Assembly (NCBI RefSeq): GCF_038049925.1
Contig: NZ_CP145809.1
Location: forward strand, 1,240,001 to 1,304,000
Origin: Georgenia sp. M64
GTDB taxonomy: Bacteria > Actinomycetota > Actinomycetes > Actinomycetales > Actinomycetaceae
Reading direction: 5' to 3'
DNA length: 64,000 nucleotides
The notes below the pieces were generated by a model. It was given only the letters and a program-made list of their open reading frames with translations. It made no database searches and was not told the DNA's origin. Positions 40,332 to 64,000 of this stretch are shown in pieces. The translations under genes and the position numbers were made by a program. Numbering within the stretch: position 1 is the first letter of the stretch; each line of letters begins with the position of its first letter.

Positions 40332-40923
40332 GAGCGAGGTCGGCGTTGCCGCCACCAAGGCGGGGCGGCACGCCGTCATCGAACACATCCTCACCTCGGC
40401 GCCGGTGCGCTCGCAGACCGAGCTCGGCGAGGCGCTGACCGCGCGGGGCATCCGCGTGACCCAGGCAACCTTGTCCCGCGACCTCGACGAGCTGCGCGCG
40501 ATCAAGGTCCGCGGACCGGACGGGCAGGCCGTCTACGCCCTCCCGGGCGAGGGGGCCGGCGGCGTCGCCCGGCCGGGGCAGGGCGGCGAGGACCAGATCG
40601 CCGCCCGGCTCCAGCGCTGGTGCGCCGAGGTCCTCCTCACCGCGGACAGCACCGCCAACCAGGTCGTGCTGCGCACCCCGCCCGGGGCGGCGCAGCTGCT
40701 CGCCTCGGCGATCGACCACTCCGTCTTCCCGCAGGTCCTCGGCTGCATCGCCGGGGACGACACCGTCCTCGTCGTCGCGCGGGACCGCGCCGGCGCCGAG
40801 GCGCTGACCCGGCGGCTCCTCGAGCTCGCCGGGGGCAGACCCCGCCCCACCACCGATCAGCCCGACCCCGCCGGCGCCGGCCGTGCGGGCACGAACGACC
40901 CAGGAGAGACCCCCCATGAGTGA
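40330..40923 (+). CDS. argR: Arginine repressor ArgR
   Basis: 197 residues. N-terminal winged helix ([20 protein letters not shown] and [18 protein letters not shown]) and C-terminal arginine-binding hexamer domain with [12 protein letters not shown] and [15 protein letters not shown] disordered Pro/Gly/Thr tail of about 25 residues follows. GTG at 40330; two further GTGs occur in the repeat units upstream. Likely controls the operator at 35734. Overlaps argG by 8 bases. Confidence 0.94.
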
Positions 40924-42172
40924 GAGCACGAGCAAGAAGGAGCGGGTCGTCCTGGCCTACTCAGGCGGCCTGGACACCTCCGTCGCGATCGGCTGGATCG
41001 CCGAGCGCACCGGCGCCGAGGTCATCGCGATGGCGGTCGACGTCGGCCAGGGCGGGGAGGACCTCGAGGTCATCCGCCAGCGGGCGCTGGACTGCGGCGC
41101 CGTCGAGGCCTACGTCGCCGACGCGCGCGAGGAGTTCGCGACCGAGTACTGCATGCCGGCCCTCAAGGCCAACGCGATGTACATGGACGCCTACCCGCTC
41201 GTCTCGGCGCTGTCCCGGCCGGTCATCGTCAAGCACCTCGTGCGGGCGGCCCGCCAGTTCGGCGCGACCACGGTCTCGCACGGCTCGACGGGCAAGGGCA
41301 ACGACCAGGTCCGCTTCGAGGTCGGCATCACCTCGATCGCCCCCGACCTGCGGTGCATCGCCCCGGTGCGCGACCTCGCGCTGACCCGCGACGTCGCCAT
41401 CGACTACGCGAACAAGCACGACCTGCCCATCGCGACGACGAAGAACAACCCGTTCTCCATCGACCAGAACGTGTGGGGCCGGGCCATCGAGACCGGCTTC
41501 CTCGAGGACATCTGGAACGAGCCCACCAAGGACGTCTACAGCTACACCGACGACCCGACCTACCCGCCCTTGCCGGACGAGGTGACCATCACCTTCCGCG
41601 AGGGCGTCCCGGTGGCGATCGACGGCCACGCGGTGACCCCGCTCCAGGCGATCCAGGAGATGAACCGCCGTGCCGGCGCACAGGGCGTGGGCCGGATCGA
41701 CATCGTCGAGGACCGGCTCGTGGGCATCAAGTCCCGCGAGGTCTACGAGGCCCCCGGCGCCATGGCGCTCATCGCCGCCCACCGCGAGCTGGAGAACGTC
41801 ACGGTCGAGCGCGAGCAGGCCCGGTTCAAGAAGGGCGTGGGGCAGCGGTGGACCGAGCTGGTCTACGACGGGCAGTGGTTCTCGCCGCTGAAGAACTCCC
41901 TCGACGTCTTCATCGACGACACCCAGCGCTACGTCTCCGGCGACATCCGGATGGTCATGCACGGTGGTCGGGCCACCGTCACCGGCCGGCGCTCGGAGTC
42001 GTCCCTGTACGACTTCAACCTCGCCACCTACGACACCGGCGACGCCTTCGACCAGTCCCACGCCAAGGGCTTCATCGAGATCTACGGCATGACGTCGAAG
42101 CTCTCCGCCGCCCGGGACGTCTCCTTCGGCAACGGCGTCGACCTGTCCACGGTGCCGACGATCAAGGCCTGA
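40916..42172 (+). CDS. argG: Argininosuccinate synthase
   Basis: 418-residue ATP-dependent ligase joining citrulline and aspartate. The ATP loop [11 protein letters not shown] lies near residues 15-23; [13 protein letters not shown] and [11 protein letters not shown] follow. AGGAGAG precedes the ATG. Last gene of the argCJBDRG operon; two hairpins follow. Confidence 0.96.
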
Positions 42173-42636: not shown

Positions 42637-43647
42637 TCAGCCCAGCGTCGCGACGAGGACCGCCTTGATCGTGTGCATGCGGTTCTCCGCCTGGTCGAAC
42701 ACCACCGACGCGGCCGACTCGAACACCTCGTCCGTCACCTCGAGGGCCTCGAGCCCGGTGCGGGCGTGCACCTCCCGGCCCACCACGGTGCCGAGGTCGT
42801 GGAACGCCGGCAGGCAGTGGAGGAACCTCGCGCCGGGGTTGCCGGTCGCGGCCATGAGCTCGGCGTCGACCCGGTAGGGGCTCAGCAGCGCGATGCGCTC
42901 GTCCCACACCTCCTTGGGCTCGCCCATCGAGACCCAGACGTCGGTGTAGACGAAGTCCGCCCCCGCCACGCCCGTCCGGACGTCGTCGGTGATGAGCAGC
43001 CGCGCACCGGTGCGCCCGGCCAGCTCCTCCGCCACGGCGACCACCTCGGGCGCGGGCTGCAGGGCAGCGGGGGCGACGAGGCGCACGTCCATGCCGAGCA
43101 GCGCGCCGGAGACAAGGAGGGAGTGGGCGGTGTTGTTGCGCGCGTCGCCCGTGTAGGCCAGGACGAGCTCGCCGTCGTCCTTGCGCCGGCCGTCGACGAC
43201 AGGGGCGTGCTCGCGCATGGTGAGCTGGTCGGCGAGCATCTGGGTGGGGTGCCACTCGTCGGTGAGCCCGTTGTAGACCGGCACCTCGGCGTGCGCGGCC
43301 AGGGTCTCGACGTCGGCCTGGCGGGCGCCGCGGTACTCGATGGCGTCGAACATCCGCCCGAGCACCCGGGCGGTGTCCTTGACCGACTCCTTGTGCCCGA
43401 CCTGCGACCCGCTGGGGTCGAGGTAGGTGACGTGCGCGCCCTGGTCGTGTGCGGCGACCTCGAACGCGGCCCGCGTGCGGGTGGAGGTCTTCTCGAAGAT
43501 CAGCGCGATGTTCTTCCCGGAGAGGCGGCGCTCCTCGGTGCCCGAGCGCTTGGCCGCCTTCAGGTCGGCGGCGAGGTCGAGCAGCGAGCGCCACTCCTCC
43601 GTGGTGAAGTCCAGCTCCTTGAGGAAGCTGCGTCCGCGCAGGTCCAC
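42637..43647 (-). CDS. Ornithine carbamoyltransferase (arcB or argF)
   Basis: 336-residue OTCase. [13 protein letters not shown] is the carbamoyl-phosphate loop, [14 protein letters not shown] and HCLPAFHD (His277, Cys278) the other sites. GTG start preceded by GAAAGGA. It lies 72 bases after arcA on the same strand, which points to the catabolic arginine deiminase pathway, but no other argF is in this window and argCJBDRG lacks one, so it may serve both directions. Direction cannot be told from motifs. Confidence 0.9.
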
Positions 43648-43719: not shown

Positions 43720-44988
43720 TCACAGGCCCTCACGGATCGTAGGACAGCTCATGCAGCGCGGGCCGCCGCGTCCGCGGCCGAGCTCGGAGCCGGGCACCTC
43801 GAGGACCTCGATGCCGCTCTCGCGCAGGTAGGAGTTGGAGGTGACGTTCCGGTCGTAGGTGACGACGACCCCCGGGGCGAGCGCGAGGGAGTTGCACCCG
43901 TCGTCCCACTGCTCGCGGGCCGCTGCGTGGACGTCCTGCTCCGCGGCGAGGATGCGCAGCCCGGTCACGCCCATCGCGTCGGCGAGCGCGTCGTGCATCC
44001 GCTCGGGCTCGTGGTCGGTGATGCGCAGGCCGCCGGGGCCGGGACCGGGGGTGACGGTGTAGGACGGGAGCATCCCCAGGCCGGCGTACTTGATGAAGCT
44101 GCGCTCGTCGACCATGGTCATCACGGTGTCCAGGTGCATGAACGAGCGCGCCCGGGGCAGCTCGACGGCCACGATCCGGTCCGCGACGCCGGCGTCGAAC
44201 AGGCGTGTGGCGAGCCGTTCGACGCCCTGGGCGGTAGTGCGCTCGCTCATCCCGACCAGGACCGCGCCGCCGCCCAGGACGAGCACGTCACCGCCCTCGA
44301 CCGAGGCCTCCCCGGCGATCCCGGCGGACCAGTGGTGGAACGTCGTGGGCGCGAACCGGGGGTGCCAGCGGTAGATCGCCTCGTAGTTGACCGTCTCGCG
44401 CGCTCGGGCCGCCATCCGCATGGCGTTGACCGCGACGCCGTCGTACACCCAGCACGAGGTGTCACGCGTGAAGAGGTGGTTGGGGAGCGGAGCCAGGACG
44501 AGGTCGTCCGCGCCCGAGCCGTGCAGCACCAGGGAGGACGGCTCGTCGATGCGCTTCCGCAGCTCGCGCCGGGTCAGGCCCCCGACGAGGAGCTCGGCGA
44601 GCTCGGCGTCGCCCATGCCGGCCGCGAGGTCGCGCAGCACCGGGGCGGCCACTGGGCCCTGGACGCGGTCGTCGAAGGTCTGATCGACGATCCACGTGCG
44701 GGCCTCCGGGACAGCCAGGGTCTCGCGTAGCAGGTCGGTGAGCTCGAGGACCTTCACGCCGGCGCCGGCGAGGACCTCGCTGAAGACGTCGTGCTCCTCC
44801 TGGGCTCGGCGCACCCACAGGAGGTCGTCGAAGAGCAGCTCCGCCATGTTCTCCGGGGTCAGGCGCAGCAGCTCGAGCCCGGGGCGGTGGACGATGACCT
44901 CTCGCAGCCGACCCACCTCGGAGCCGACGAAGGGCGGCTCGGCCGCGGGCGGGCGCAGGTCAGCGGTGGTGGTGTCCGTCGTCGCCAT
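43720..44988 (-). CDS. arcA: Arginine deiminase
   Basis: 422-residue amidinotransferase-fold enzyme turning arginine into citrulline and ammonia. Starts PFVGSEVGRLREVIVHRPG; NHLFTRDTSCWVYDG, HLDTVMTMVDERSFI and the nucleophile Cys412 in GGPRCMSCPTIREGL are all present. AGGAGG precedes the ATG at 44988. With the OTC downstream it forms an arc pair; no arcC (carbamate kinase) or arcD is visible here, so ATP-forming completion lies elsewhere, if at all. Confidence 0.94.
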   Translation of the reverse strand: MATTDTTTADLRPPAAEPPFVGSEVGRLREVIVHRPGLELLRLTPENMAELLFDDLLWVRRAQEEHDVFSEVLAGAGVKVLELTDLLRETLAVPEARTWIVDQTFDDRVQGPVAAPVLRDLAAGMGDAELAELLVGGLTRRELRKRIDEPSSLVLHGSGADDLVLAPLPNHLFTRDTSCWVYDGVAVNAMRMAARARETVNYEAIYRWHPRFAPTTFHHWSAGIAGEASVEGGDVLVLGGGAVLVGMSERTTAQGVERLATRLFDAGVADRIVAVELPRARSFMHLDTVMTMVDERSFIKYAGLGMLPSYTVTPGPGPGGLRITDHEPERMHDALADAMGVTGLRILAAEQDVHAAAREQWDDGCNSLALAPGVVVTYDRNVTSNSYLRESGIEVLEVPGSELGRGRGGPRCMSCPTIREGL

Positions 44989-45005
44989 CGGGGCCTCCTG
45001 GGCTT

Positions 45006-45017
45006 GGTGGGCCCACC
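45006..45017. promoter_or_regulatory. Palindrome upstream of arcA
   Basis: Perfect 12-bp palindrome GGTGGGCCCACC, 17 bases before the arcA start. Could be an operator or a leader hairpin; no matching regulator is known to me. Confidence 0.3.
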
Positions 45018-45076
45018 GTCTCACAGGGGAGCGGTGGATCACACGTCCCGCCTCGCCCGGCCGCGCGGGAGCACGG

Positions 45077-45148
45077 ACGACGGGTGCTCGGCGTAAGCGG
45101 GCGATGGGTGTTCGGCGTACCCGGGCCGCGGATGCTCGGCAGACACGG
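45077..45148. repeat. 24-bp degenerate tandem repeat between arcA and the multicopper oxidase gene
   Basis: Three units (45077-45100, 45101-45124, 45125-45148) sharing GGRTGYTCGGC. They lie in a 313-base gap with no gene. Unlike the other repeat families in this window. Confidence 0.75.
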
Positions 45149-45149
45149 G

Positions 45150-45180
45150 CGACCGGCGGTGGCGAGGCCACCGCCGGTCG
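45150..45180. terminator. Perfect 14-bp hairpin
   Basis: CGACCGGCGGTGGC (45150-45163) pairs with GCCACCGCCGGTCG (45167-45180) around GAG. It could be a second stop for the multicopper oxidase transcript or an insulator between the two genes. No T run on the minus strand. Confidence 0.5.
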
Positions 45181-45254
45181 TCTCACGTCGCCGGCAGGTG
45201 CGACGTGGCTGGTGAAGGGGTCTGCGGCGAACGTGTCGCCGTCCTGCCGGGGTG

Positions 45255-45292
45255 CACCCGGCCCGGCAAACCCTGCGGCGCCGGGCCGGGTG
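45255..45292 (-). terminator. Hairpin after the multicopper oxidase gene
   Basis: A 13-bp inverted repeat, 45255-45267 with 45280-45292, starts 10 bases after the stop codon (in minus-strand sense). Probable terminator. Confidence 0.65.
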
Positions 45293-45301
45293 GATCGGTT
45301 G

Positions 45302-48300
45302 CTAGGGCAGCGGGAGGGTGTTGGACCAACCCGACTGGGTCGTGTCACTGAAGGCGTGGACCCGGTAGAGGTACGCCACACCCGACGTGACTGTCTGGGT
45401 GAAGGTGGTGGTGTTCGGCCCCACCGTGGCGTTGACGACGTTGGTGCCGTCGCTGTTGGTGCGCTGGATGAGGAACCCGGTCTCGTTGTCAGAGTTGTCC
45501 ATCCAGCTGAGGTTCACCGTGGAGGTCTTCTTGTTCTTCACGGTGAGCGTCCCGGTGAGGTTGGTCGGCGTCAAGACAGGGTCGCCCACGGTCTGGGGGG
45601 TGTTCCTGCTGTCGACCGTGATCGTCGGGAAGCCTGCCCCCGGGGCGAGGTTGTTGAACGCCGGGTTCGAGTAGTCCCACGTGTCCCCGACCGTGTTGAT
45701 CGCGTACACCTGGTACTCGTAGTTGTCCCTCGTGTTGCCGATGGGGTCGACGTACTCGGCAAGGCCGGTCTCGGCGCCGGTCGGTGTGGTGCCGTCCGGC
45801 AGGGCCGTGATGTTCACCCTGCCCTCGGTCTGGACCATCGCGACCTCGGTCCACGGTCCGGTCGAGCCTTCGAGACGCCGCTCGATCACGAAGGCGGTCT
45901 CGTTCTTCGAGTTGTCCGTCCAGCTGACGAGGTACTGCTGGTTACGGCCGGAGCCGGACCGGACGGCACCGATGTAGGTCGGTTCTGCCGGGTTCACCGC
46001 CACGGCCTGGGTGCGCATCATGTCCATCTCCTCATGGCTGAGGATGTGGCAGTGGAGCACGTACTCCCACCCGAAGTTCACGAAGTGGTTGAGCACGTCG
46101 ATCGGCTCGCCGTCGGGGTTGAAGGCCATGAGCGGAAGCCCCATCGCCTCCTGCTGCGTGGTGTTGGCGATGTATGCACCAGCCGGCATCGACGGGTCGA
46201 GCAGGCGGACGCTGTTGGGCAGACCACCGGCCCACTCCCCATCCGTCGGGATCGGCGGGATGATCGGCCGCACGACCACGATCGTGTCCTCAAGCGGGCT
46301 GATGCGGACCGTGTCCTTCCAGCCGAGCTCGGTCGCCTCGGGCTTGCGGACGATACCGTCCCAGCCGACACGGTTGAGCAGCTGGACGTCGTAGAGGTGG
46401 AAGTGGATGGGGTGGGTGTCCACGCCGTTGTGGGTGAACTTCCAGATCTGGGTGCCGTCGTCCGCCTGGGCGATCGGGGTGGCCTCCATGCCCGGGGGAA
46501 GCTCGATGCCGTCGAGGACCTCGGTGGGCGGCATCACGAAGCCGTACAGGATCATGTTCTGCAGGCCCGCCTGGGCGTTCGGTGTCTCCACCCCCAGGAA
46601 GCCGCTCATGCGCCCGTACTCGTTCTCGAACGCCTCACCCATCTCGTCCTGGATCATCTTGGGCTTGAGGTTGATGGTGAGCCGCTCGGCCGCCGTGGAG
46701 GTGGTGAACGGAGCTCCCGGCGCGGTGGCCGCGTCCGGGTCGACGAGCCGGTTGAAGGTCAGCGAGGTGTCGTAGATCTGCACCGTCCCGTTGAGCGGGC
46801 CGCTCGTGGGGAAGCTGGTGCCGTAGGCGCTGTTGTACTCGCCCTGGCCGACGACGATCGGCTTCTGGCCGGACTCGAACACGCCGGACCCGTCGGCCTG
46901 GTGCGCGAACGCGGCCTGGAGCGTGGTCAGGTTGAACGCGGGAGCCGGTGCGGTGTCCGTGACCTTGATCTGCATGACGGTGCGGGTGTTCGGCCCGTAC
47001 CCGGGCAGGGTCGACGAGGCGCCGCCGGAGTCGCGGTAGTCGCCGTTGCCGGTGTAGTAGTCGTAGCGCGGGTCACGCGCCGGGAAGGCGGCCGGGGCGT
47101 CGTTGTAGACGATCAGCGTCTGGCCCGCGTACTGCGACAGGTCGACGACGACGTCGAAGCGCTCGGCCGGGGCGACGAGCAGCGAGTGCTGGTCGACGTT
47201 GCCGGCGTTGAACACCGTGGGGTCGTTGACCCACGTGGTGGGGTGCGCCGGAACCACGGCCGGAGCGGGCAGGAAGCCGCCCTCGGTGCCCATGACGATC
47301 CAGTCCGGGCCCTCGGTGCCGGCGACCGGCGTCGGGAACACGGTCGGGTCATCGAGAGCCGCCGCGACCTCGTCAGGGTTGAGCGCGACCTCGGTGCAGG
47401 AGAAGCCGGTGCTCTCCGGGACGGGCGTGGTGGTGCCGTCGCAGACGGCGCCGTTGGCGTCGACGGCCTGGTAGAGCGAGAGGTTCATGAAGCGGTCGTT
47501 GGCCGCGTTGAGGATCCGCAGGCGGTAGGCCTTCGGCTCCAGCGTCTTGGTGGGGTAGGCCATCCCGTTGACCACCGGGGTGTCCATGAACGCCTCCATG
47601 CCCATGGAGTTGTACGGCGTGCTGGGCATGAGTGGCGGCTCGCACCACCCGGCCTCCGCGTCGCAGAGCGGGTCGTAGTACGGGTTGTCGATCGGCGGGT
47701 AGTCCACGTTGTTCGTGGGCGGCCAGAACCAAGGGCCGTAGGCCCAGCGGCCGTAGGCGTTGACGCCTGACGGGTCACCGGGGTTCTGCGCCGGCGAGTA
47801 GACGTGCGGCAGCCAGAGGCTGCCCTCGCCGCCCCAGCGGGCGGTGTCCCACGTCTCGTCCTGGAGGGCGAGCTGGTCAGCGTTGGGCACGAACGTCTTG
47901 TCCTGGAACACGAGCGGGATGGTGTCGGCCGCGCCGGGGATGGTCCCGGCGTCGACGAGCGCCTGCTCGGTGGCGTCCTGGATGATGTACGGCGCGGCCT
48001 CGCCGGCGTACACGTTGAGGCGCGTGATGCCCCACGAGTGGTCGTGGTAGAACATCAGCCGCGCGCTCTGGGCGTTGGTGTAGTAGAGCGTCTGGACGCC
48101 GTCCTTCGGGTCGTCGACGTTCGCCATGTCGGGCACGTTCTGCACGCTCACGCCCTCCGGGAACGGGGTGTCCTCGTTGGCCGGGGTGATCCACTGGTGC
48201 GGCGTGCCGTCGGAGATCCACGGGGTGATGCCGCCGTGCAGGTGGGCGATGGACCGGTTCTCGGAGTAGCACAGCCCGTCCACCACGAGCTGGTTCTTCG

Positions 48301-49693
48301 TCATCGCGACGCCGTCGATGAACATGCGGTTGCCGTCCATGTCGAACATGCCGTCGTCGCACATGGGCCTCTGCGGATCCACCATGCCCGGCATGGCCTC
48401 CATCATCGCGTGGCCTTCGGGCGTCATGCCCGCGCCCATGACGGTGGGGTCCACCGGGAGGAAGAGGTTGCCGGCTTCGCCTGTGGGAAGCAGGTTGCGG
48501 AACGTGATCCGGACCGGTGTGTCCTTCTGCGCCACGATGGCCGGGCCGAGGTAGCTCGGCTCGGTGACGCCGAAGTATCCGTTACCGAGGTCGTAGTGAG
48601 CGCTGTCCACGGGGACATTTGTCGGCGTCTCGAGCTGCACATAGCCGCGCAACTTGGTCGCCGGGAGGTCGGCGTGCATCTTCTGGCTGTACTCGACCAG
48701 GGCGATCTCGTAGTAGTCCGCCGCCGGGACACCATCCCCGGCGGGGAAGGACGTCGTATCGGCGACGGCCGTAGGGATCGTGGGGAGCTCATCGACGAAC
48801 TTCCTGATGCCGCCGGTGATCGTGACCTGGTCCGGGCCCGCCATGCTCGCGGCGAAGGAGTACGTCCGAGCCTGCGAGGTGAACAGCGGGTAGGGAGCCG
48901 TTCCCAGAGTGATCGTGGAGTCCTGCGCGGGCAGGGCCCCGGACGGGTAGTAGATGCTGTCGGTGCCGGAACCGCCGGTGTAGGGGATGCCTCGGCCGTA
49001 GTGGGCGATCCGGTCACCTGCGAGGACCGGGAGGTTGGCGACGCCGTAGGTCGCCACGCCGGTCGTGGTGGGCGTGGTGAGCACGCCGCTGTCGAACACG
49101 ACCGAGTACTCGTTCGGGTTCGCCGTCGGTCGAAGCACGTAGGCGTGGAAGGAGAGGTTCTCCGAACCGGCCTGCACGTAGCTCTGGAACCCGTTGAGGA
49201 AGCCGGTGGACAGCACCCCGGGGCTCATGACGAGGACGTTCGACGCGCCGTCGCTGGCGGTCGGTCGCTGCACCACGTCGTTGCCGACCAGGACGTCCGC
49301 GCCAGGAGCGGTCGTGAGTTCCGGCAGCGGGCTGTTGGCGTAGTTCGGGTGGCTGAAGTAGCGGGGCGCATCGCCGGGAAGGGCGGCAGCGGCAGCCGCC
49401 ATGTCCACCATGAGCGGGTTGAGCGCACCCTCCTGGAGGGCGCGGGCGGCCGCAGCGTCGCGGTCCGCCTGGTCGATCTTCTTGTCGATCTTCTCCTGGA
49501 CGTTGGCGGCCTTCTCCTCGTACCGCTTCGCGTCGTCCTTGGCTGCCGCAGGGGCAGCGGAGCGGGCAGCGTTCACACCGGCTGCGGCGACGGTCGTCGC
49601 CTGGCTTGGTGGACTGGCTGCCGAGACTGTCCCTACCCCGAGGGGTAAGAGGGCGATGGCCACGAGGGCGGCCATGACTGACCGATGCTTCAT
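45302..49693 (-). CDS. Large secreted multicopper oxidase with C-terminal fibronectin type III-like domains
   Basis: 1463 residues. A signal peptide (about 1-26, MKHRSVMAALVAIALLPLGV then cleavage near SAA) is followed by an Ala/Lys-rich helical stretch (about 27-95), a region unlike usual cupredoxins (about 100-400), then the oxidase. All four copper motifs are present: HLHGG (484-486), YHDH (549-552), HPIHFH (1094-1099) and HCHILSH with Met1225 as axial ligand (1214-1225). After about 1235 come two modules resembling fibronectin III (SWTDNSKNETAFVIERR and SWMDNSDNETGFLIQR). No membrane anchor or sorting signal seen. The size and insertions recall Mn(II)- or metal-oxidising enzymes, but substrate is unknown. 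Two DosR-like boxes lie upstream. Confidence 0.9.
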   Translation of the reverse strand: MKHRSVMAALVAIALLPLGVGTVSAASPPSQATTVAAAGVNAARSAAPAAAKDDAKRYEEKAANVQEKIDKKIDQADRDAAAARALQEGALNPLMVDMAAAAAALPGDAPRYFSHPNYANSPLPELTTAPGADVLVGNDVVQRPTASDGASNVLVMSPGVLSTGFLNGFQSYVQAGSENLSFHAYVLRPTANPNEYSVVFDSGVLTTPTTTGVATYGVANLPVLAGDRIAHYGRGIPYTGGSGTDSIYYPSGALPAQDSTITLGTAPYPLFTSQARTYSFAASMAGPDQVTITGGIRKFVDELPTIPTAVADTTSFPAGDGVPAADYYEIALVEYSQKMHADLPATKLRGYVQLETPTNVPVDSAHYDLGNGYFGVTEPSYLGPAIVAQKDTPVRITFRNLLPTGEAGNLFLPVDPTVMGAGMTPEGHAMMEAMPGMVDPQRPMCDDGMFDMDGNRMFIDGVAMTKNQLVVDGLCYSENRSIAHLHGGITPWISDGTPHQWITPANEDTPFPEGVSVQNVPDMANVDDPKDGVQTLYYTNAQSARLMFYHDHSWGITRLNVYAGEAAPYIIQDATEQALVDAGTIPGAADTIPLVFQDKTFVPNADQLALQDETWDTARWGGEGSLWLPHVYSPAQNPGDPSGVNAYGRWAYGPWFWPPTNNVDYPPIDNPYYDPLCDAEAGWCEPPLMPSTPYNSMGMEAFMDTPVVNGMAYPTKTLEPKAYRLRILNAANDRFMNLSLYQAVDANGAVCDGTTTPVPESTGFSCTEVALNPDEVAAALDDPTVFPTPVAGTEGPDWIVMGTEGGFLPAPAVVPAHPTTWVNDPTVFNAGNVDQHSLLVAPAERFDVVVDLSQYAGQTLIVYNDAPAAFPARDPRYDYYTGNGDYRDSGGASSTLPGYGPNTRTVMQIKVTDTAPAPAFNLTTLQAAFAHQADGSGVFESGQKPIVVGQGEYNSAYGTSFPTSGPLNGTVQIYDTSLTFNRLVDPDAATAPGAPFTTSTAAERLTINLKPKMIQDEMGEAFENEYGRMSGFLGVETPNAQAGLQNMILYGFVMPPTEVLDGIELPPGMEATPIAQADDGTQIWKFTHNGVDTHPIHFHLYDVQLLNRVGWDGIVRKPEATELGWKDTVRISPLEDTIVVVRPIIPPIPTDGEWAGGLPNSVRLLDPSMPAGAYIANTTQQEAMGLPLMAFNPDGEPIDVLNHFVNFGWEYVLHCHILSHEEMDMMRTQAVAVNPAEPTYIGAVRSGSGRNQQYLVSWTDNSKNETAFVIERRLEGSTGPWTEVAMVQTEGRVNITALPDGTTPTGAETGLAEYVDPIGNTRDNYEYQVYAINTVGDTWDYSNPAFNNLAPGAGFPTITVDSRNTPQTVGDPVLTPTNLTGTLTVKNKKTSTVNLSWMDNSDNETGFLIQRTNSDGTNVVNATVGPNTTTFTQTVTSGVAYLYRVHAFSDTTQSGWSNTLPLP

Positions 49694-49844: not shown

Positions 49845-52138
<2,294 letters not shown>

Positions 52139-52270: not shown

Positions 52271-53545
52271 GTGACCGACATCCTCGACGAGCTCCAGTGG
52301 CGGGGCCTGCTGGCCCAGTCCACCGACATCGCCACCCTCCGGGCGGCGATGGCCGAGGGTCCGATCACCTACTACTGCGGCTTCGACCCCACAGCGGCGA
52401 GCCTGCACCACGGTCACCTGGTCCAGCTCGTCGTCATGCGCCACCTCCAGCTCGCGGGTCACAACCCGATCGCCCTCGTGGGCGGGGCCACGGGCATGAT
52501 CGGCGACCCCCGCATGTCGGGCGAGCGCGTCCTCAACGACAAGGACACCATCGCCGGCTGGACCGACCGGCTGCGTGGGCAGATCTCGACCTTCCTCGAC
52601 TTCGACGGTCCCCACGCGGCGCAGATGGTCAACAACCTCGACTGGACCGGCCAGCTGACGGCGATCGACTTCCTGCGGGACATCGGCAAGTACTTCCGGC
52701 TCGGGACGATGCTCGCCAAGGACACCGTCGCCAGGCGGCTGGCCAGCGAGGAGGGCATCTCCTTCACCGAGTTCAGCTACCAGATCCTGCAGGGCATGGA
52801 CTTCCTCGAGCTCTACCGCCGCCACGGCTGCACCCTGCAGACCGGCGGCAACGACCAGTGGGGCAACCTCCTCGCCGGCGTCGACCTCATCCACAAGGCC
52901 GAGGGGGGGAGCGTGCACGTCCTCACCACCCCGCTCATCACGAAGTCCGACGGCACCAAGTTCGGCAAGTCCGAGGGCGGGGCGATCTGGCTCGACGGGG
53001 AGATGTTCAGCCCGTACGCCTTCTACCAGTTCTGGCTCAACACCGACGACGCCGACGTGGTCCGCTACCTCAAGGTCTTCACGTTCCGGACGCGGGAGCA
53101 GATCGAGGAGCTGGCCGAGGCGGTGGCCACGCGCCCGCAGGCCCGAGAGGCCCAGCGCGTCCTCGCGGAGGACGTCACGACCCTGGTCCACGGCGCCGAC
53201 GCGACCGACCGGGTCCGTCGAGCGTCCCAGGCACTGTTCGGGCGGGACGACCTGCGCGAGCTCGACGCCGTCACGTTGCGCGACGCGGTCGCGGAGCTGC
53301 CGACGGGGGAGGCGGTGGTCGGCGAGGCGACCATGGTCGACCTCCTGCTCGCCACGGGGCTCGAGGGCGGACGCTCGGCTGCGCGACGGACCATCGCGAG
53401 CGGAGGGGCGTACCTGAACAACGAGAAGATCGAGGACGAGGACCAGGTCCTCGCGACCGGTGACGTCCTCGACGGCGGGTACGTGCTCCTCCGCAAGGGA
53501 CGACGCAACCTCGCGGTCGTGGCCGCTGTCGGGCTGTCGAACTGA
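52271..53545 (+). CDS. tyrS: Tyrosine--tRNA ligase
   Basis: 424-residue class I synthetase. HIGH-type site in DPTAASLHHGHLVQL, KMSKS-type KFGKS at residues 230-234, and a C-terminal S4 domain (SAARRTIASGGAYLNNEKIE). GTG start. Next in the order is the rRNA operon, whereas mycobacteria have other genes here. Confidence 0.97.
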   Translation: MTDILDELQWRGLLAQSTDIATLRAAMAEGPITYYCGFDPTAASLHHGHLVQLVVMRHLQLAGHNPIALVGGATGMIGDPRMSGERVLNDKDTIAGWTDRLRGQISTFLDFDGPHAAQMVNNLDWTGQLTAIDFLRDIGKYFRLGTMLAKDTVARRLASEEGISFTEFSYQILQGMDFLELYRRHGCTLQTGGNDQWGNLLAGVDLIHKAEGGSVHVLTTPLITKSDGTKFGKSEGGAIWLDGEMFSPYAFYQFWLNTDDADVVRYLKVFTFRTREQIEELAEAVATRPQAREAQRVLAEDVTTLVHGADATDRVRRASQALFGRDDLRELDAVTLRDAVAELPTGEAVVGEATMVDLLLATGLEGGRSAARRTIASGGAYLNNEKIEDEDQVLATGDVLDGGYVLLRKGRRNLAVVAAVGLSN

Positions 53546-54391: not shown

Positions 54392-59350
<4,959 letters not shown>

Positions 59351-59500
59351 CAACACAAAGCATCCAAACGACTGCTTGCGTCCACTGTACGGTTCCCGGG
59401 TAACGCACCCCGCACCCCACACACCCCACCACCACCCCCACACCGGGTGGCCGGCGGAAACGAGGGGAACGCGGAAGGGGTTGCGCACAACTCGACAGAG
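59351..59500 (+). other. 23S-5S spacer and 3' strand of the 23S processing stem
   Basis: 59374-59395 is complementary to 56201-56222 (about 20 of 22 bases). A C/A-rich run at 59405-59450 is also complementary to the G/T-rich spacer before 23S, so the stem may be much longer. No gene. Confidence 0.65.
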
Positions 59501-59618
59501 TTACGGCGGTCATAGCGAGGGGGAAACGCCCGGTCCCATTCCGAACCCGGAAGCTAAGCCCCTCAGCGCCGATGGTACTGCACGGGAGACTGTGTGGGAG
59601 AGTAGGACACCGCCGAAC
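59501..59618 (+). rRNA. rrf: 5S ribosomal RNA
   Basis: About 118 bases: TTACGGCGGTCATAGCG at the start pairs with the end CACCGCCGAA; CCCGGTCCCATTCCGAACCC and AAGCTAAGCC are classic 5S blocks. Boundaries by homology. Confidence 0.95.
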
Positions 59619-59631
59619 ACCCATTCCAAGG

Positions 59632-59662
59632 AGGCCGCAACTTTATGTTGCGGCCTTTTTGG
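59632..59662 (+). terminator. rrn operon terminator
   Basis: AGGCCGCAAC (59632-59641) pairs with GTTGCGGCCT (59647-59656) around TTTAT, followed by TTTTGG. A clear intrinsic terminator. Confidence 0.9.
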
Positions 59663-59703: not shown

Positions 59704-61959
59704 ATGGCGACTGAGGACAACGAGCGCGATAAGGGTTCGTCGCCGCGTCGCGGTGGCGGAAAGCGGCCGTATTCCGGTGGTCACCGGTCGGACGGTGTGG
59801 GCGGCAATGAGGCCGGCCGCGACTCCGGCAGGGGAAGGGCGAGCACCGGATCCTCCCGAGAGGGCGGTTATCAGGGTCGCCGTGAGGGCTCCGGCCCCCG
59901 TGAGGGCGGATTCCAGGACCGTCGCGAGGGTGGCTACCGCGGCACGCCTCCCCGTGAGGGCGGTTACCAGGGTCGCCGTGAGGGCTCTGCTCCGCGTGAG
60001 GGCGGTTATCAGGGTCGCCGTGAGGGCTCGGGTCCGCGTGAAGGCGGATACCAGGACCGTCGCGAGGGTGGCTACCGCGGCACAGCTCCCCGTGAAGGTG
60101 GTTACCAGGGTCGCCGTGAGGGCTCCGGCCCGCGTGAGGGCGGTTATCAGGGTCGCCGTGAGGGCTCCGGCCCGCGTGAGGGCGGTTATCAGGGTCGCCG
60201 TGAGGGCTCGGGCCCGCGTGAAGGCGGATACCAGGACCGTCGCGAGGGTGGCTACCGCGGCACAGCTCCCCGTGAAGGTGGTTACCAGGGTCGCCGTGAG
60301 GGCTCCGGCCCCCGTGAAGGTGGTTACCAGGGGCGCCGTGAGGGCTCTGGCCCCCGTGAAGGTGGTTACCAGGGGCGCCGTGAGGGCTCTGGCCCCCGTG
60401 AAGGTGGTTACCAGGGGCGCCGTGAGGGCTCTGGCCCCCGTGAAGGTGGTTACCAGGGTCGCCGTGAGGGCTCTGGCCCCCGTGAAGGTGGTTACCAGGG
60501 TCGCCGTGAGGGCTCTGGCCCCCGTGAAGGTGGTTACCAGGGGCGCCGTGAGGGCTCTGGCCCCCGTGAAGGTGGTTACCAGGGTCGCCGTGAGGGCTCT
60601 GGCCCGCGTGAGGGCGGTTACCAGGGTCGCCGTGAGGGCTCTGGCCCCCGTGAGGGCGGTTACCAGGGTCGCCGTGAGGGCTCTGGCCCCCGTGAAGGTG
60701 GTTACCAGGGTCGCCGTGACGGCTCCGGCCCCCGCGAGGGCGGATACCAGGACCGTCGCGAGGGCGGATACCAGGACCGTCGCGAGGGCGGCTACAGCGG
60801 CACGTCTCCGCGTGAGGGCGGTTACCAGGGGCGCCGTGACGGCTCCGGCCCGCGCGAGGGTGGTTACCAGGGGCGCCGTGACGGCTCCGGCCCGCGCGAG
60901 GGTGGTTACCAGGGGCGCCGTGACGGCTCCGGTGCCCGTCAGGGCGGTCACCACGGGCGCCCCGTCGGTGACCGACCTGACGGCCGTTCGTTCCGGGACG
61001 GTCCTCAGGACTCAGCGCGACGCGACCCGCGGCCGGACCGACCTGCGGAGCCCCACGTCCCGGACGACGTCATTCCGCAGATGCTGGACCGCACAGCACG
61101 CACCCGCCTGCGAACTCTCGGCAAGACCAATGCCGATCTGGTCGCCAGGCACCTCGTCATGGCCGGTCGTCTCCTCGACACCGATCCAGAGACCGCGTAC
61201 GAGCACGCCCAGGCGGCGGCTCGTCGTGCCGGCCGTGTCGACATCGTGCGGGAGGGCGTCGCGGTGACCGCTTACGCCACGGCTCGCTACGCAGAGGCTC
61301 TGCGGGAGCTTCGGACCGTGCGAAGGCTTTCTGGGATCGACGCTCACCGGCCGATGGAAGCCGACTGCGAGCGAGGACTTGGGCGTCCGGAGCGGGCTCT
61401 GGCCATCGTCGCGGAGACGGATGTCAGCAAGCTGACCGAGGACGACCGTGTCGAGCTGGCGATCGTGGCGAGCGGCGCCCGTGCTGATCTCGGCGAGAAC
61501 GAAGCGGCACTCATGGTGCTCGAGTCGGCGCTCGTCGAGCGGGTGGCGGACCCTGCCCTCCGAAGCCGTCTCGCGCTCGTGCGGGCGGAGCGCCTCGACG
61601 AGCTCGGCCGAACGGAGGAGGCGCAGGCTCTTCGTGCCGAGGTCGGTCCGGAGCCGATCGACGATGAGGAGATCGTGGTGCACGACCTCGCCGAGTCCGA
61701 CGAGGACGAAACGCACACAGCCGACGAGGATGGCGAGTCAGCAGGCTCGGAGGCTGAGGCGGAGCTGGGACCCGAGCCTGAGCTGGAGGCTGAGCTTGAG
61801 CTTGAGCTTGAGCCTGAGCCTGAGCCTGAGGCCGAGGCCGAGGCCGAGGCTGAGCCCGAGCCGGCTGTGGCTGGTGTCGCAGAGAGTGACGACACGAGCG
61901 AGGACTTCGAGCAGGCGGCCCTCGACCTCGGGGCCGGGATCGACAAGGAGGAGCGCTGA
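59704..61959 (+). CDS. TPR-like protein with long Arg/Gly-rich repeat domain and acidic tail
   Basis: 751 residues. After a basic, Gly/Ser-rich lead (1-51), about two dozen copies of a 14-residue unit YQGRREGSGPREGG (52-419), with variants (DRREGG, YRGTAP, YSGTSP). Then an ordered helical domain (about 440-660: MLDRTARTRLRTLGKTNADL, MAGRLLDTDPETAYEHAQAA) that resembles TPR and matches the position of the mycobacterial Rv1691-type gene (tyrS, this gene, HAD, tiny gene, tlyA). The last 90 residues are Glu/Pro/Ala repeats. The tract is RGG-like and likely disordered and RNA-binding. ATG follows AATAGAGGCAATC. Function unknown. Confidence 0.85.
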   Translation: MATEDNERDKGSSPRRGGGKRPYSGGHRSDGVGGNEAGRDSGRGRASTGSSREGGYQGRREGSGPREGGFQDRREGGYRGTPPREGGYQGRREGSAPREGGYQGRREGSGPREGGYQDRREGGYRGTAPREGGYQGRREGSGPREGGYQGRREGSGPREGGYQGRREGSGPREGGYQDRREGGYRGTAPREGGYQGRREGSGPREGGYQGRREGSGPREGGYQGRREGSGPREGGYQGRREGSGPREGGYQGRREGSGPREGGYQGRREGSGPREGGYQGRREGSGPREGGYQGRREGSGPREGGYQGRREGSGPREGGYQGRREGSGPREGGYQGRRDGSGPREGGYQDRREGGYQDRREGGYSGTSPREGGYQGRRDGSGPREGGYQGRRDGSGPREGGYQGRRDGSGARQGGHHGRPVGDRPDGRSFRDGPQDSARRDPRPDRPAEPHVPDDVIPQMLDRTARTRLRTLGKTNADLVARHLVMAGRLLDTDPETAYEHAQAAARRAGRVDIVREGVAVTAYATARYAEALRELRTVRRLSGIDAHRPMEADCERGLGRPERALAIVAETDVSKLTEDDRVELAIVASGARADLGENEAALMVLESALVERVADPALRSRLALVRAERLDELGRTEEAQALRAEVGPEPIDDEEIVVHDLAESDEDETHTADEDGESAGSEAEAELGPEPELEAELELELEPEPEPEAEAEAEAEPEPAVAGVAESDDTSEDFEQAALDLGAGIDKEER
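59857..60960 (+). repeat. 42-bp coding tandem repeat array
   Basis: Runs of 42-bp units encode YQGRREGSGPREGG. From 60271 to 60732 eleven units sit in perfect register; elsewhere variants of 54 bp and other length interrupt. Codon usage is nearly identical between copies, suggesting recent expansion or homogenisation by recombination. Confidence 0.92.
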
Positions 61960-63032
61960 TGACCGAGTCCACGGGGCTGCTCGCGAGCGCGCGCGCTCTT
62001 GCCGAGGAGTACGACCTCGCCCTCATGGACCTCGACGGCGTCTGCTACCGCGGAGCCGAGCCGGTCGAGCACGCGGACGAGGGGGTGGCGTCCGCACGGG
62101 GCCTCGGCATGCGGATGCTCTTCGTCACCAACAATGCCAACCGGCCGCCCCAGACGGTCGCCGACCAGCTCAGCTCGCTCGGGATCCCGACCGAGCCGGT
62201 GGAGGTCATGACCTCCTCGCAGGCGGCAGCGGCGGTCCTCGCGCAGGACCTTCCCGCGGGCGCGCTCGTGCTCGCCGTCGGCGGGGCGGGGCTGCGCTCC
62301 GCCCTCCTTGAGGCGGGACTCCGTGTGACGGACACCGCAGCGGACGAGCCCGTGGCCGTCGCCCAGGGGTTCGCGCCCGAGGTCGGGTGGGCCCAGTTGA
62401 CCGAGGCGGCCTACGCGATCGCGGCCGGTGCACGCTACGTGGCAACCAACCTCGACTCGACCCTGCCCACGGAGCGGGGTTTCGCCGTGGGCAACGGCTC
62501 CCTCGTGGCAGCGGTCGTCAACGCGACCGGGGTGACGCCGCTCTCCGCCGGCAAGCCGGAGGCCGAGATCTTCCACCAGGCGGTGGCGCGGGCCGGCGGG
62601 ACGCGCCCCCTCGCCGTCGGTGACCGGCTCAACACCGACCTGGCCGGGGCGCGCGCGGCGGGCATCCCCGGACTCCACGTCCTGACGGGGGTGAGCGACG
62701 CCCGCGCGGTGGTCCTCGCCGAGCCCCACGAGCGGCCGAGCTTCCTCGCCGTCGACCTTCGCGGCCTCGCCGAGCCCCACCCGGCACCGCACCGCGACCC
62801 GCAGGGGTGGTGGCGGTGCGGCGCGGCCGCGGCCCGGGTCGCCGGCTCCGAGCCGCACCTCGAGCTGCGGGTGGGCGACCGGACGCTGGACCTGGACTCC
62901 GACGCCGAGCCGGTGACGGTCTCCCTCGACGCCTGGCGCTGCCTCACCGCGGCAGCCTGGGACGCTGCGGACGACGGCACGGTACTCACACCCGAGCGGG
63001 TGCCCGTGCTGGAGGTCGTCTCGCCGCGATAG
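61959..63032 (+). CDS. HAD-superfamily phosphatase, class IIA (Rv1692-like)
   Basis: 357 residues. Motif I ALMDLDGVCYRG (about 21-27), motif II LFVTNNANRPP, motif III Lys in SAGKPEAEIF, motif IV AVGDRLNTDLAGA. A C-terminal extension of about 90 residues follows the core. The mycobacterial gene in the same place encodes a glycerol-3-phosphate phosphatase, so that activity is a reasonable guess. Start overlaps the previous stop by one base (TGATG). Confidence 0.85.
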   Translation: MTESTGLLASARALAEEYDLALMDLDGVCYRGAEPVEHADEGVASARGLGMRMLFVTNNANRPPQTVADQLSSLGIPTEPVEVMTSSQAAAAVLAQDLPAGALVLAVGGAGLRSALLEAGLRVTDTAADEPVAVAQGFAPEVGWAQLTEAAYAIAAGARYVATNLDSTLPTERGFAVGNGSLVAAVVNATGVTPLSAGKPEAEIFHQAVARAGGTRPLAVGDRLNTDLAGARAAGIPGLHVLTGVSDARAVVLAEPHERPSFLAVDLRGLAEPHPAPHRDPQGWWRCGAAAARVAGSEPHLELRVGDRTLDLDSDAEPVTVSLDAWRCLTAAAWDAADDGTVLTPERVPVLEVVSPR

Positions 63033-63070: not shown

Positions 63071-63232
63071 ATGGACGTGACCCCCGCCGACCTCCCCGCG
63101 GCGCGTCCGGCTGCCGCCGACCCTCTCGAGAGGCTGGGCGAGATCGACGAGCTCCCCCTGGCGGACCAGGTCGCCGTCTTCGACGCCATCCACTCGCACC
63201 TCTCGGCGCGGCTGAGAAGCGCCGAGAGCTGA
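63071..63232 (+). CDS. Tiny conserved protein (Rv1693-like)
   Basis: 53 residues: MDVTPADLPAARPAAADPLE, then LGEIDELPLADQVAVFDAIH and a basic end. One amphipathic helix likely. ATG at 63071 follows GGAGAGGAGA; the upstream ATG-like extension has no such site. Same place as the small gene between the HAD and tlyA genes in mycobacteria. Function unknown. Ends one base before tlyA's start. Confidence 0.75.
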   Translation: MDVTPADLPAARPAAADPLERLGEIDELPLADQVAVFDAIHSHLSARLRSAES

Positions 63233-63233
63233 C

Positions 63234-64000
63234 GTGGCGCGCCGCGTACGCATCGACGCCGAGCTGGTCCGACGAGGTCTGGCCCGTTCGCGCCAGCACG
63301 CCGCCGAGCTCCTCGCGGCCGGTCACGTCCGGCTCGACGGCGAGGTCGTCACCAAGCCCGCCCGGCAGGTCGATCCTGCCCAGGCCCTGCTCGTCGACGT
63401 GCCTGACGCCCAGGACTACGTCTCGCGCGGTGCCCACAAGCTGGCCGGCGCCCTCGACGCGCTCGGGGCCGACGCGCCGGTGGTCGACGGTCGTCGGTGT
63501 CTCGACGCCGGGGCCTCCACCGGCGGGTTCACCGACGTGCTGCTGCGCCGCGGGGCCGCCCACGTCGTCGCCGTCGACGTCGGCTACGGCCAGCTGGCGT
63601 GGTCCCTGCAGACCGACGAGCGCGTGAGCGTGCTGGACCGCACCAACGTGCGGACCCTCACGCCGGAGGCTGTCGCGCCGGCGCCGCAGCTCGTGGTGGG
63701 CGACATGTCGTTCATCTCGCTCACCCTCGTCCTGCCTGCCCTCGCGAGGGCGGCCGCCCCGGACGCGGACTTCCTCCTCATGGTCAAACCGCAGTTCGAG
63801 GTGGGCAAGGACCGGCTCGGCTCGGGCGGGGTGGTGCGCGACCCCGCGCTCCACGTGGAGTCGGTCCTCACCGTCGCGGCCGCCGCGGCCGAGGTCGGAC
63901 TCGACACGTGGGCCGTGGTCCCCAGCCCGCTGCCCGGTCCGTCCGGCAACGTCGAGTACTTTCTGGCGATGCGCCGCGACCACCCCCGGGCCCTGAGCGG
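63234..64000 (+). CDS. tlyA: TlyA family rRNA 2'-O-methyltransferase (3' end outside window)
   Basis: First 255 residues from GTG 63234. S4 domain (1-62: RRVRIDAELVRRGLARSRQH, HVRLDGEVV), then the methyltransferase domain with KLAGALDALG, the SAM motif CLDAGASTGGFTD, VAVDVGYGQLAW, VVGDMSFISL and MVKPQFEVGKD (catalytic Lys region). TlyA methylates 16S and 23S rRNA and sets capreomycin sensitivity in mycobacteria. The frame is open to base 64000; a short C-terminal piece is missing. Confidence 0.93.
   Translation, partial: MARRVRIDAELVRRGLARSRQHAAELLAAGHVRLDGEVVTKPARQVDPAQALLVDVPDAQDYVSRGAHKLAGALDALGADAPVVDGRRCLDAGASTGGFTDVLLRRGAAHVVAVDVGYGQLAWSLQTDERVSVLDRTNVRTLTPEAVAPAPQLVVGDMSFISLTLVLPALARAAAPDADFLLMVKPQFEVGKDRLGSGGVVRDPALHVESVLTVAAAAAEVGLDTWAVVPSPLPGPSGNVEYFLAMRRDHPRALS

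Follow-up and report, generated by a model that had tools for sequence, protein, structure and literature searches.

Gene arrangement behind the rRNA operon

What might a protein do that combines a long Arg/Gly/Tyr-rich repeat tract with a TPR-like domain and an acidic tail, and whose gene lies directly behind an rRNA operon? The question was raised by a stretch of 64,000 nucleotides from Georgenia sp. M64, called the window in the following, for which a link of this protein to ribosome assembly had been suggested from the sequence. The position beside the rRNA operon was given correctly, the open reading frame starting 85 bases after the 5S gene on the same strand. The features of this part of the window are:

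52271..53545, plus strand: tyrS, tyrosine-tRNA ligase, preceding the rRNA operon (372 bits with NCBIfam tyrS, cut-off 113.8)
54392..55915, plus strand: 16S rRNA (Rfam RF00177)
56238..59352, plus strand: 23S rRNA (Rfam RF02541)
59502..59618, plus strand: 5S rRNA (Rfam RF00001)
59626..59662, plus strand: terminator-like hairpin of 16 pairs with T-rich tail, between 5S gene and reading frame
59704..61959, plus strand: protein of 751 aa with repeat tract, TPR domain, and acidic tail (open reading frame, ATG start)
59704..59868, plus strand: Gly/Arg/Ser-rich leader, residues 1-55
59869..60948, plus strand: repeat tract, residues 56-415, with 20 14-mers, five 8-mers, and four 10-mers; predicted to be disordered
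60283..60744, plus strand: eleven consecutive 14-mers, residues 194-347
61069..61644, plus strand: TPR domain, residues 456-647 (AF2 model, Foldseek, family alignment)
61669..61956, plus strand: Glu/Asp-rich tail, residues 656-751
61959..63032, plus strand: HAD-type phosphatase (Pfam Hydrolase_6 and Hydrolase_like over cut-off; NCBIfam HAD-IIA 95.9 bits, just below the cut-off of 100.15)
63071..63232, plus strand: small open reading frame of 53 aa between the HAD gene and tlyA (no NCBIfam match)
63234..64000, plus strand: tlyA, rRNA cytidine-2'-O-methyltransferase family, extending past the window

The ATG of the phosphatase gene overlaps the stop codon of the repeat protein gene by one base. 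TlyA scored over the cut-off of a subfamily model and below that of a narrower equivalog model. Two shadow reading frames over the array, of 463 aa on the minus and 504 aa on the plus strand, were taken as by-products of the repeat. Elsewhere in the window, a protein of 1463 aa is encoded on the minus strand (45302-49693), whose matches to the multicopper oxidases PhsA and CueO are weak and stay far under the cut-off. It is flanked by arginine genes, namely argG (40883-42172), ornithine carbamoyltransferase (42637-43647), arginine deiminase (43720-45381), and argH (49854-51491).

A similar order of genes is known from mycobacteria. Mycobacterial rrnB sits behind tyrS, as does the operon in the window (PMC10218544), and Rv1691, Rv1692, Rv1693, tlyA, ppnK, and recN form one run (PMC3072309). 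In Georgenia, the repeat protein, the HAD phosphatase, the small reading frame, tlyA, NAD kinase, and a recN-like gene, the last recognized by eye, follow each other. The small reading frame thus occupies the place of Rv1693. Gene order, together with the presence of TPR-family loci in genomes bearing PPE genes, suggests that the window protein may be an orthologue of MSMEG_3754/Rv1691.

Structure of the repeat tract

The 14-mer YQGRREGSGPREGG is present in 15 exact copies, or in 19 if exchanges of E/D and G/A are allowed, and the array is closed by one further 14-mer, YQGRRDGSGARQGG, which brings the total to 20. Interspersed among the 14-mers are the 8-mers, mostly YQDRREGG (5 copies), and the 10-mers, e.g. 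YRGTAPREGG (4 copies), the order of units being A-b-c-AA-b-c-AAA-b-c-A(x11)-bb-c-AAA with A for the 14-mer. The motif [YF]Q[GD]RR[ED]G occurs 25 times in all, five 8-mers included. The original prediction of about two dozen units is therefore acceptable if the 8-mers are counted, but too high for the 14-mers alone. Eleven 14-mers do follow in register; the first ten are identical in protein and the eleventh carries an exchange of E to D. On the DNA level, Tandem Repeats Finder reported a period of 42 with 20.8 copies and a score of 1008.

The 360 residues of the tract comprise 121 G, 77 R, 44 E, 28 Y, and 1 F, and are devoid of K, L, I, V, M, and W. An aromatic residue is found every 8-14 positions inside the array. 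The charge is distributed as had been proposed, an Arg/Gly/Tyr-rich tract being opposed by a Glu-rich tail: 77 R versus 53 D/E result in a net charge of +24 for the tract, and the tail contains 39 D/E versus 2 K/R among its 96 residues. The whole protein has a net charge of -18. To call the tract RGG-like is loose. It is rich in Gly and Arg, but the single RGG is located at residue 16, outside the array, and RG is found just six times in the 751 residues, so that RGG/RG motifs are not clustered. Among 262 crude gene calls from 400 kb of the same genome, the maximum of Arg+Gly was 58 per 100, equal to the tract (58), which was therefore not set apart from the background by this measure; the background stretches with the highest values may be wrong reading frames. 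Disorder, also proposed for the tract, was predicted for residues 1-440, with mean pLDDT values of 36-50 in blocks of ten residues and no secondary structure. In the model of the full-length protein, only residues from about 455 to 650 are ordered, tract and tail both being predicted to be disordered.

Comparing 19 units in 171 pairs yielded 635 synonymous versus 66 non-synonymous codon differences, and 700 of 718 base differences between units are in third codon positions. As a single-base change in such a 14-mer unit would be non-synonymous in 73% of cases, the predominance of synonymous differences indicates an array beyond chance. The nearest species compared, with 97% identity in the TPR domain, has a comparable array, but the order of units is different and 8-mer/10-mer pairs amount to 7 each versus 4 each in the window protein (same patterns). 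Units have therefore been gained and lost between species. The change in copy number proposed for strains was thus observed for two species, with one genome per species covered. An assembly artefact was considered and is unlikely: the genomes of both species are single contigs, the second one containing its array in another order, and the array in the window is in frame with differences mostly in third positions.

The TPR domain and its conserved site

The assignment of a TPR-like domain was corroborated by structure prediction and by the family. The AF2 model of this part shows 11 helices with a mean pLDDT of 93.8, and the Foldseek list was filled by TPR structures, such as 8chy (consensus TPR, E 8.8e-4), 5m72 (SRP72, 1.5e-3), and 2q7f (YrrB, 1.8e-3). 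The VIA rows also contained TPR structures with Z of 13.6-15.9, MamA (3vty) reaching Z 15.9 with an rmsd of 3.6 and 171 aligned residues. Among 46 family members, Pfam TPR models were matched at E <= 0.01 by up to 18 (TPR_2 in 18, TPR_19 in 15), and models of other TPR proteins by some, SctY by 19 members (best 8e-06) and PrsT by 6 (best 5.8e-09). The window protein alone had no Pfam or NCBIfam match over curated cut-offs and no TPR model at E <= 0.01, TPR_19 remaining below cut-off with E 0.2, and a family dedicated to these proteins was not found in Pfam or NCBIfam. Searching the sequences of solved structures gave marginal TPR matches alone (best E 0.059, SRP72). The TPR domain of human SRP72, bacterial MamA and YrrB, and the designed consensus TPR thus share the fold with the window protein, but only 9-18% identity. 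Structural ties of this kind are common among helical repeats, so that no function follows from them.

Conservation was scored on 188 distinct domains from the class and 13 from outside. In either set, R511, R516, Y524, R541, D554, and R557 reach 1.00 (two decimals), and E517 reaches 0.99 in the class and 1.00 outside. Judged by the TPR register rather than by coordinates, several of these (near-)invariant residues would belong to inner helices and outline a binding groove.

Linkage to rRNA and phosphatase genes

The TPR domain was detected in 56 of 59 relatives. Of 246 genomes sampled from the class, 224 contain it, six of these having two matches. A draw of 198 genomes from the phylum yielded 82 with the domain, among them 17 from the same class. 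All locus counts ignore kinship, and some loci represent one genome sampled twice.

In 114 of 214 loci, rRNA is located upstream, always on the same strand, and many loci are clipped by contig ends or flank length. Longer flanks were obtained for 40 loci of the class, seven of which had been picked since the shorter flank had shown none, and for 20 from other classes; 33 and 18 of these, respectively, had the 600 or more upstream bases needed for evaluation. A 5S gene on the same strand within 600 bp was present in 23 of the 33 and in 12 of the 18. In the remaining 10 and 6 loci it was absent from this distance, three of each having 5S 0.6-2.6 kb away. For comparison, only four 5S matches were obtained in the 4.18 Mb of the Georgenia genome itself. 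Besides the 5S gene of the window, these are three identical genes on the minus strand within about 10 kb (L295-L297, G000:C1:2813204-2823245), two of them 2 kb apart. The window protein belongs to an actinobacterial TPR family whose gene has often been kept directly behind an rRNA operon. The link to rrn and tlyA, initially noted at a single locus, is found again at many loci across the phylum and is stronger than could be known at that time.

The hairpin between the 5S gene and the reading frame, one compared with an average of 0.7 in shuffles of the region, is also a common feature. Stems of at least 9 pairs follow 5S in 108 of 114 spacers versus 14 of 114 after shuffling, 49 of the 114 were positive in a terminator scan demanding a T run, and the distance from the end of the stem to the start codon has a median of 63 bases (91 spacers measured). 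With a stem at this location, the rrn transcript may end before the gene and co-transcription is not given; either read-through or a promoter nearby may be needed for expression. A promoter consensus between 5S and the reading frame was not detected, and promoter-like elements chosen by eye were not kept in the nearest species. Read-through past 5S is not mentioned in passages of a study on rRNA transcripts of Propionibacterium acnes (PMC3848588).

Downstream, 19 genomes were sampled for genes on the same strand within 8 kb; HAD was found in 13 of them and TlyA in 14. In 17 of 214 loci, TPR domain and HAD are fused to one protein, as called by a C-terminal part of at least 400 aa and a HAD match 79-112 nt past the domain; the fused sequences were read in five of them (L016, L019, L022, L023, and L029). 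A role outside RNA is argued for most strongly by the link to HAD. Fusions, downstream position, and the overlap of start and stop codons in the window would all fit a scaffold or regulator whose TPR domain binds the phosphatase, a glycerol-3-phosphate phosphatase in the case of Rv1692 (PMC12722247). Tract and tail would then serve solubility or localisation, and the rRNA neighbourhood would be an old accident of gene order. However, there are loci with 5S close upstream in which HAD was not found (L312) or is 1.7-2.1 kb away (L303, L304, and L306), and the Arg-rich tract is left without explanation. We regard this main rival as unlikely.

Evolution of the N-terminal tract

The tract is not a peculiarity of one genome, as had been assumed, but of a type general in the class. 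Among 141 complete N-termini of at least 30 aa, Arg makes up 15% or more in 139 and Gly 10% or more in 133; the 132 that combine the two mostly have repeats of their own. Their length varies from 36 to 705 residues with a median of 260. One exception, L034 with low GC3, has a Lys-rich N-terminus instead. Outside the class, N-termini of 12-90 aa in 13 loci and 15-295 aa in 20 loci were observed, part of them only 12-40 aa long; with the longest reaching 295 aa, Arg-rich tracts of at least 100 aa occur there too. In five loci of mycobacterial type, 48-93 aa precede the domain, the longest value resulting from an uncertain TTG start, and 20 aa follow it, compared with 455 and 105 in the window protein. 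The genus of these five is indicated by PPE genes in three of the genomes, the other two sharing the genus code. Mycobacterial relatives are thus much shorter, as predicted, but they do not lack the tract altogether, since a short Arg-rich stub is kept.

Tandem arrays were detected in 95 of 122 tracts of at least 100 aa. Every period is a multiple of three, and the units differ between loci. In 136 tracts compared with shuffles within the tract, RGG[YF] was enriched 8.6-fold, GG[YF] 5.9-fold, RR[DE][DE] 3.8-fold, and RGG 1.8-fold, values that are inflated by tandem repetition; RG (1.02), RR (0.77), and GR (0.68) were without enrichment. GC bias was rejected as the source of the Arg richness, as Arg content is independent of GC3 (rho -0.03, n=135), and is a partial explanation for Gly (rho 0.37). 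Longer tracts go along with a larger number of acidic residues in the tail (Spearman 0.59, n=123, kinship ignored).

These data also bear on the possibility that the tract is a low-complexity expansion prone to slippage, with little function past solubility, and that the TPR domain alone works as an adaptor between proteins. In the window, the identity of units drops from 0.94 to 0.88 over lags 1 to 7, as expected of tandem duplication, repeats vary between loci, and part of the loci outside the class manage with very short N-termini. On the other hand, the same composition and motifs recur in unrelated arrays, Arg content is independent of GC, the codons in which units differ are mostly synonymous, and tail acidity tracks tract length. 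On balance, a tract without specific function is rather improbable. The tract constitutes a natural experiment, in which composition was kept and sequence rewritten, many lineages having amplified different units with similar motifs.

Co-purification of a putative mycobacterial orthologue with RNA polymerase

MSMEG_3754, the orthologue of Rv1691, is annotated only as TPR-repeat-containing protein. An anti-RNA-polymerase pull-down recovered it among the high-confidence proteins; DNA did not come down with the tagged protein, which may be RNA associated according to the authors (PMC7092591). Proximity to polymerase is weak evidence, since formaldehyde was used and 214 high-confidence proteins are listed (PMC7092591). 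MSMEG_3754 is also part of a ClpC1 interactome table (PMC10433963). Pull-down and gene position at the 3' end of rrn could be reconciled with a protein that acts at rRNA operons as polymerase partner, e.g. in elongation or antitermination, instead of handling RNA. The missing association with DNA, the broad pull-down list, and the lack of a DNA-binding domain among Pfam and NCBIfam matches make such a partner highly doubtful. A functional study of the family or of its rrn linkage was not found among the literature matches listed, 15 of 935 in one case, few subscription journals being covered. The same holds for a measurement of RNA binding.

Possible function

The evidence consists of the architecture, a conserved charged TPR site, a recurring linkage to rrn and tlyA, and a tract rebuilt repeatedly under steady composition. 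It seems about evenly balanced whether the window protein is associated with RNA or RNPs at all. The reading we prefer, tentatively and at somewhat less than even chance, is an adaptor that is associated with RNA or RNPs and acts in rRNA synthesis or ribosome assembly, and rRNA as its main client is less likely than not. In such an adaptor, the TPR groove (R511, R516, E517, Y524, R541, D554, and R557) would dock a conserved protein partner, and the Arg/Tyr tract could make many weak contacts with RNA, which longer tracts may strengthen in some lineages. The acidic tail might compete with RNA for the Arg tract and thereby keep binding reversible; that tail acidity tracks tract length suggests such self-competition.

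Three lines point to RNA without being a proof, namely the position next to rrn and tlyA, the motifs of Arg, Gly, and aromatic residues, and the co-purification with polymerase. RNA binding is a plausible proposal. Other findings count against the adaptor. Acidic residues keep the tract far from being purely basic, and the net charge of the entire protein is negative. By Arg+Gly alone, the tract did not stand out in the crude comparison with the rest of the genome. The sole orthologue with data is mycobacterial, and loci of mycobacterial type have a very short tract. The hairpin behind 5S, the phosphatase fusions, and the loci without nearby 5S belong here as well.

RGG/RG-motif RNA-binding proteins with Arg/Tyr-rich disordered regions are known from eukaryotes, FUS, fibrillarin, and Ddx4 being of this type. 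The window protein resembles them in its low-complexity Gly/Arg-rich tract with regular aromatics, and RGG[YF] is enriched in its family. It is unlike them in having a TPR domain, many acidic residues in the tract, and one RGG, and RNA binding is only proposed here. Formation of condensates, for which the regular aromatic spacing is the sole pointer, is speculation.

In a bolder version, Actinomycetota would have a protein dedicated to organizing RNA, encoded at the end of an rRNA operon. Its TPR domain would be held at the site of transcription or assembly and the tract, rebuilt many times by tandem duplication, would gather nascent rRNA into a nucleolus-like body, or the protein would be a general RNA chaperone of Actinomycetota; this has little probability. 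Actinomycetota are not known to possess a general RNA chaperone, be it Hfq or ProQ.

With a (near-)invariant site and no described function found, the gene is well suited as a candidate when missing components of ribosome production or RNA handling in actinobacteria are sought. It is nearly always single-copy and lies behind the rRNA operon in many members of the phylum, including genomes of mycobacterial and streptomycete type. The gene is also contained in records titled Sporosarcina (L155) and Proteobacteria MAG (L109), which are possibly mislabelled or contaminated assemblies.
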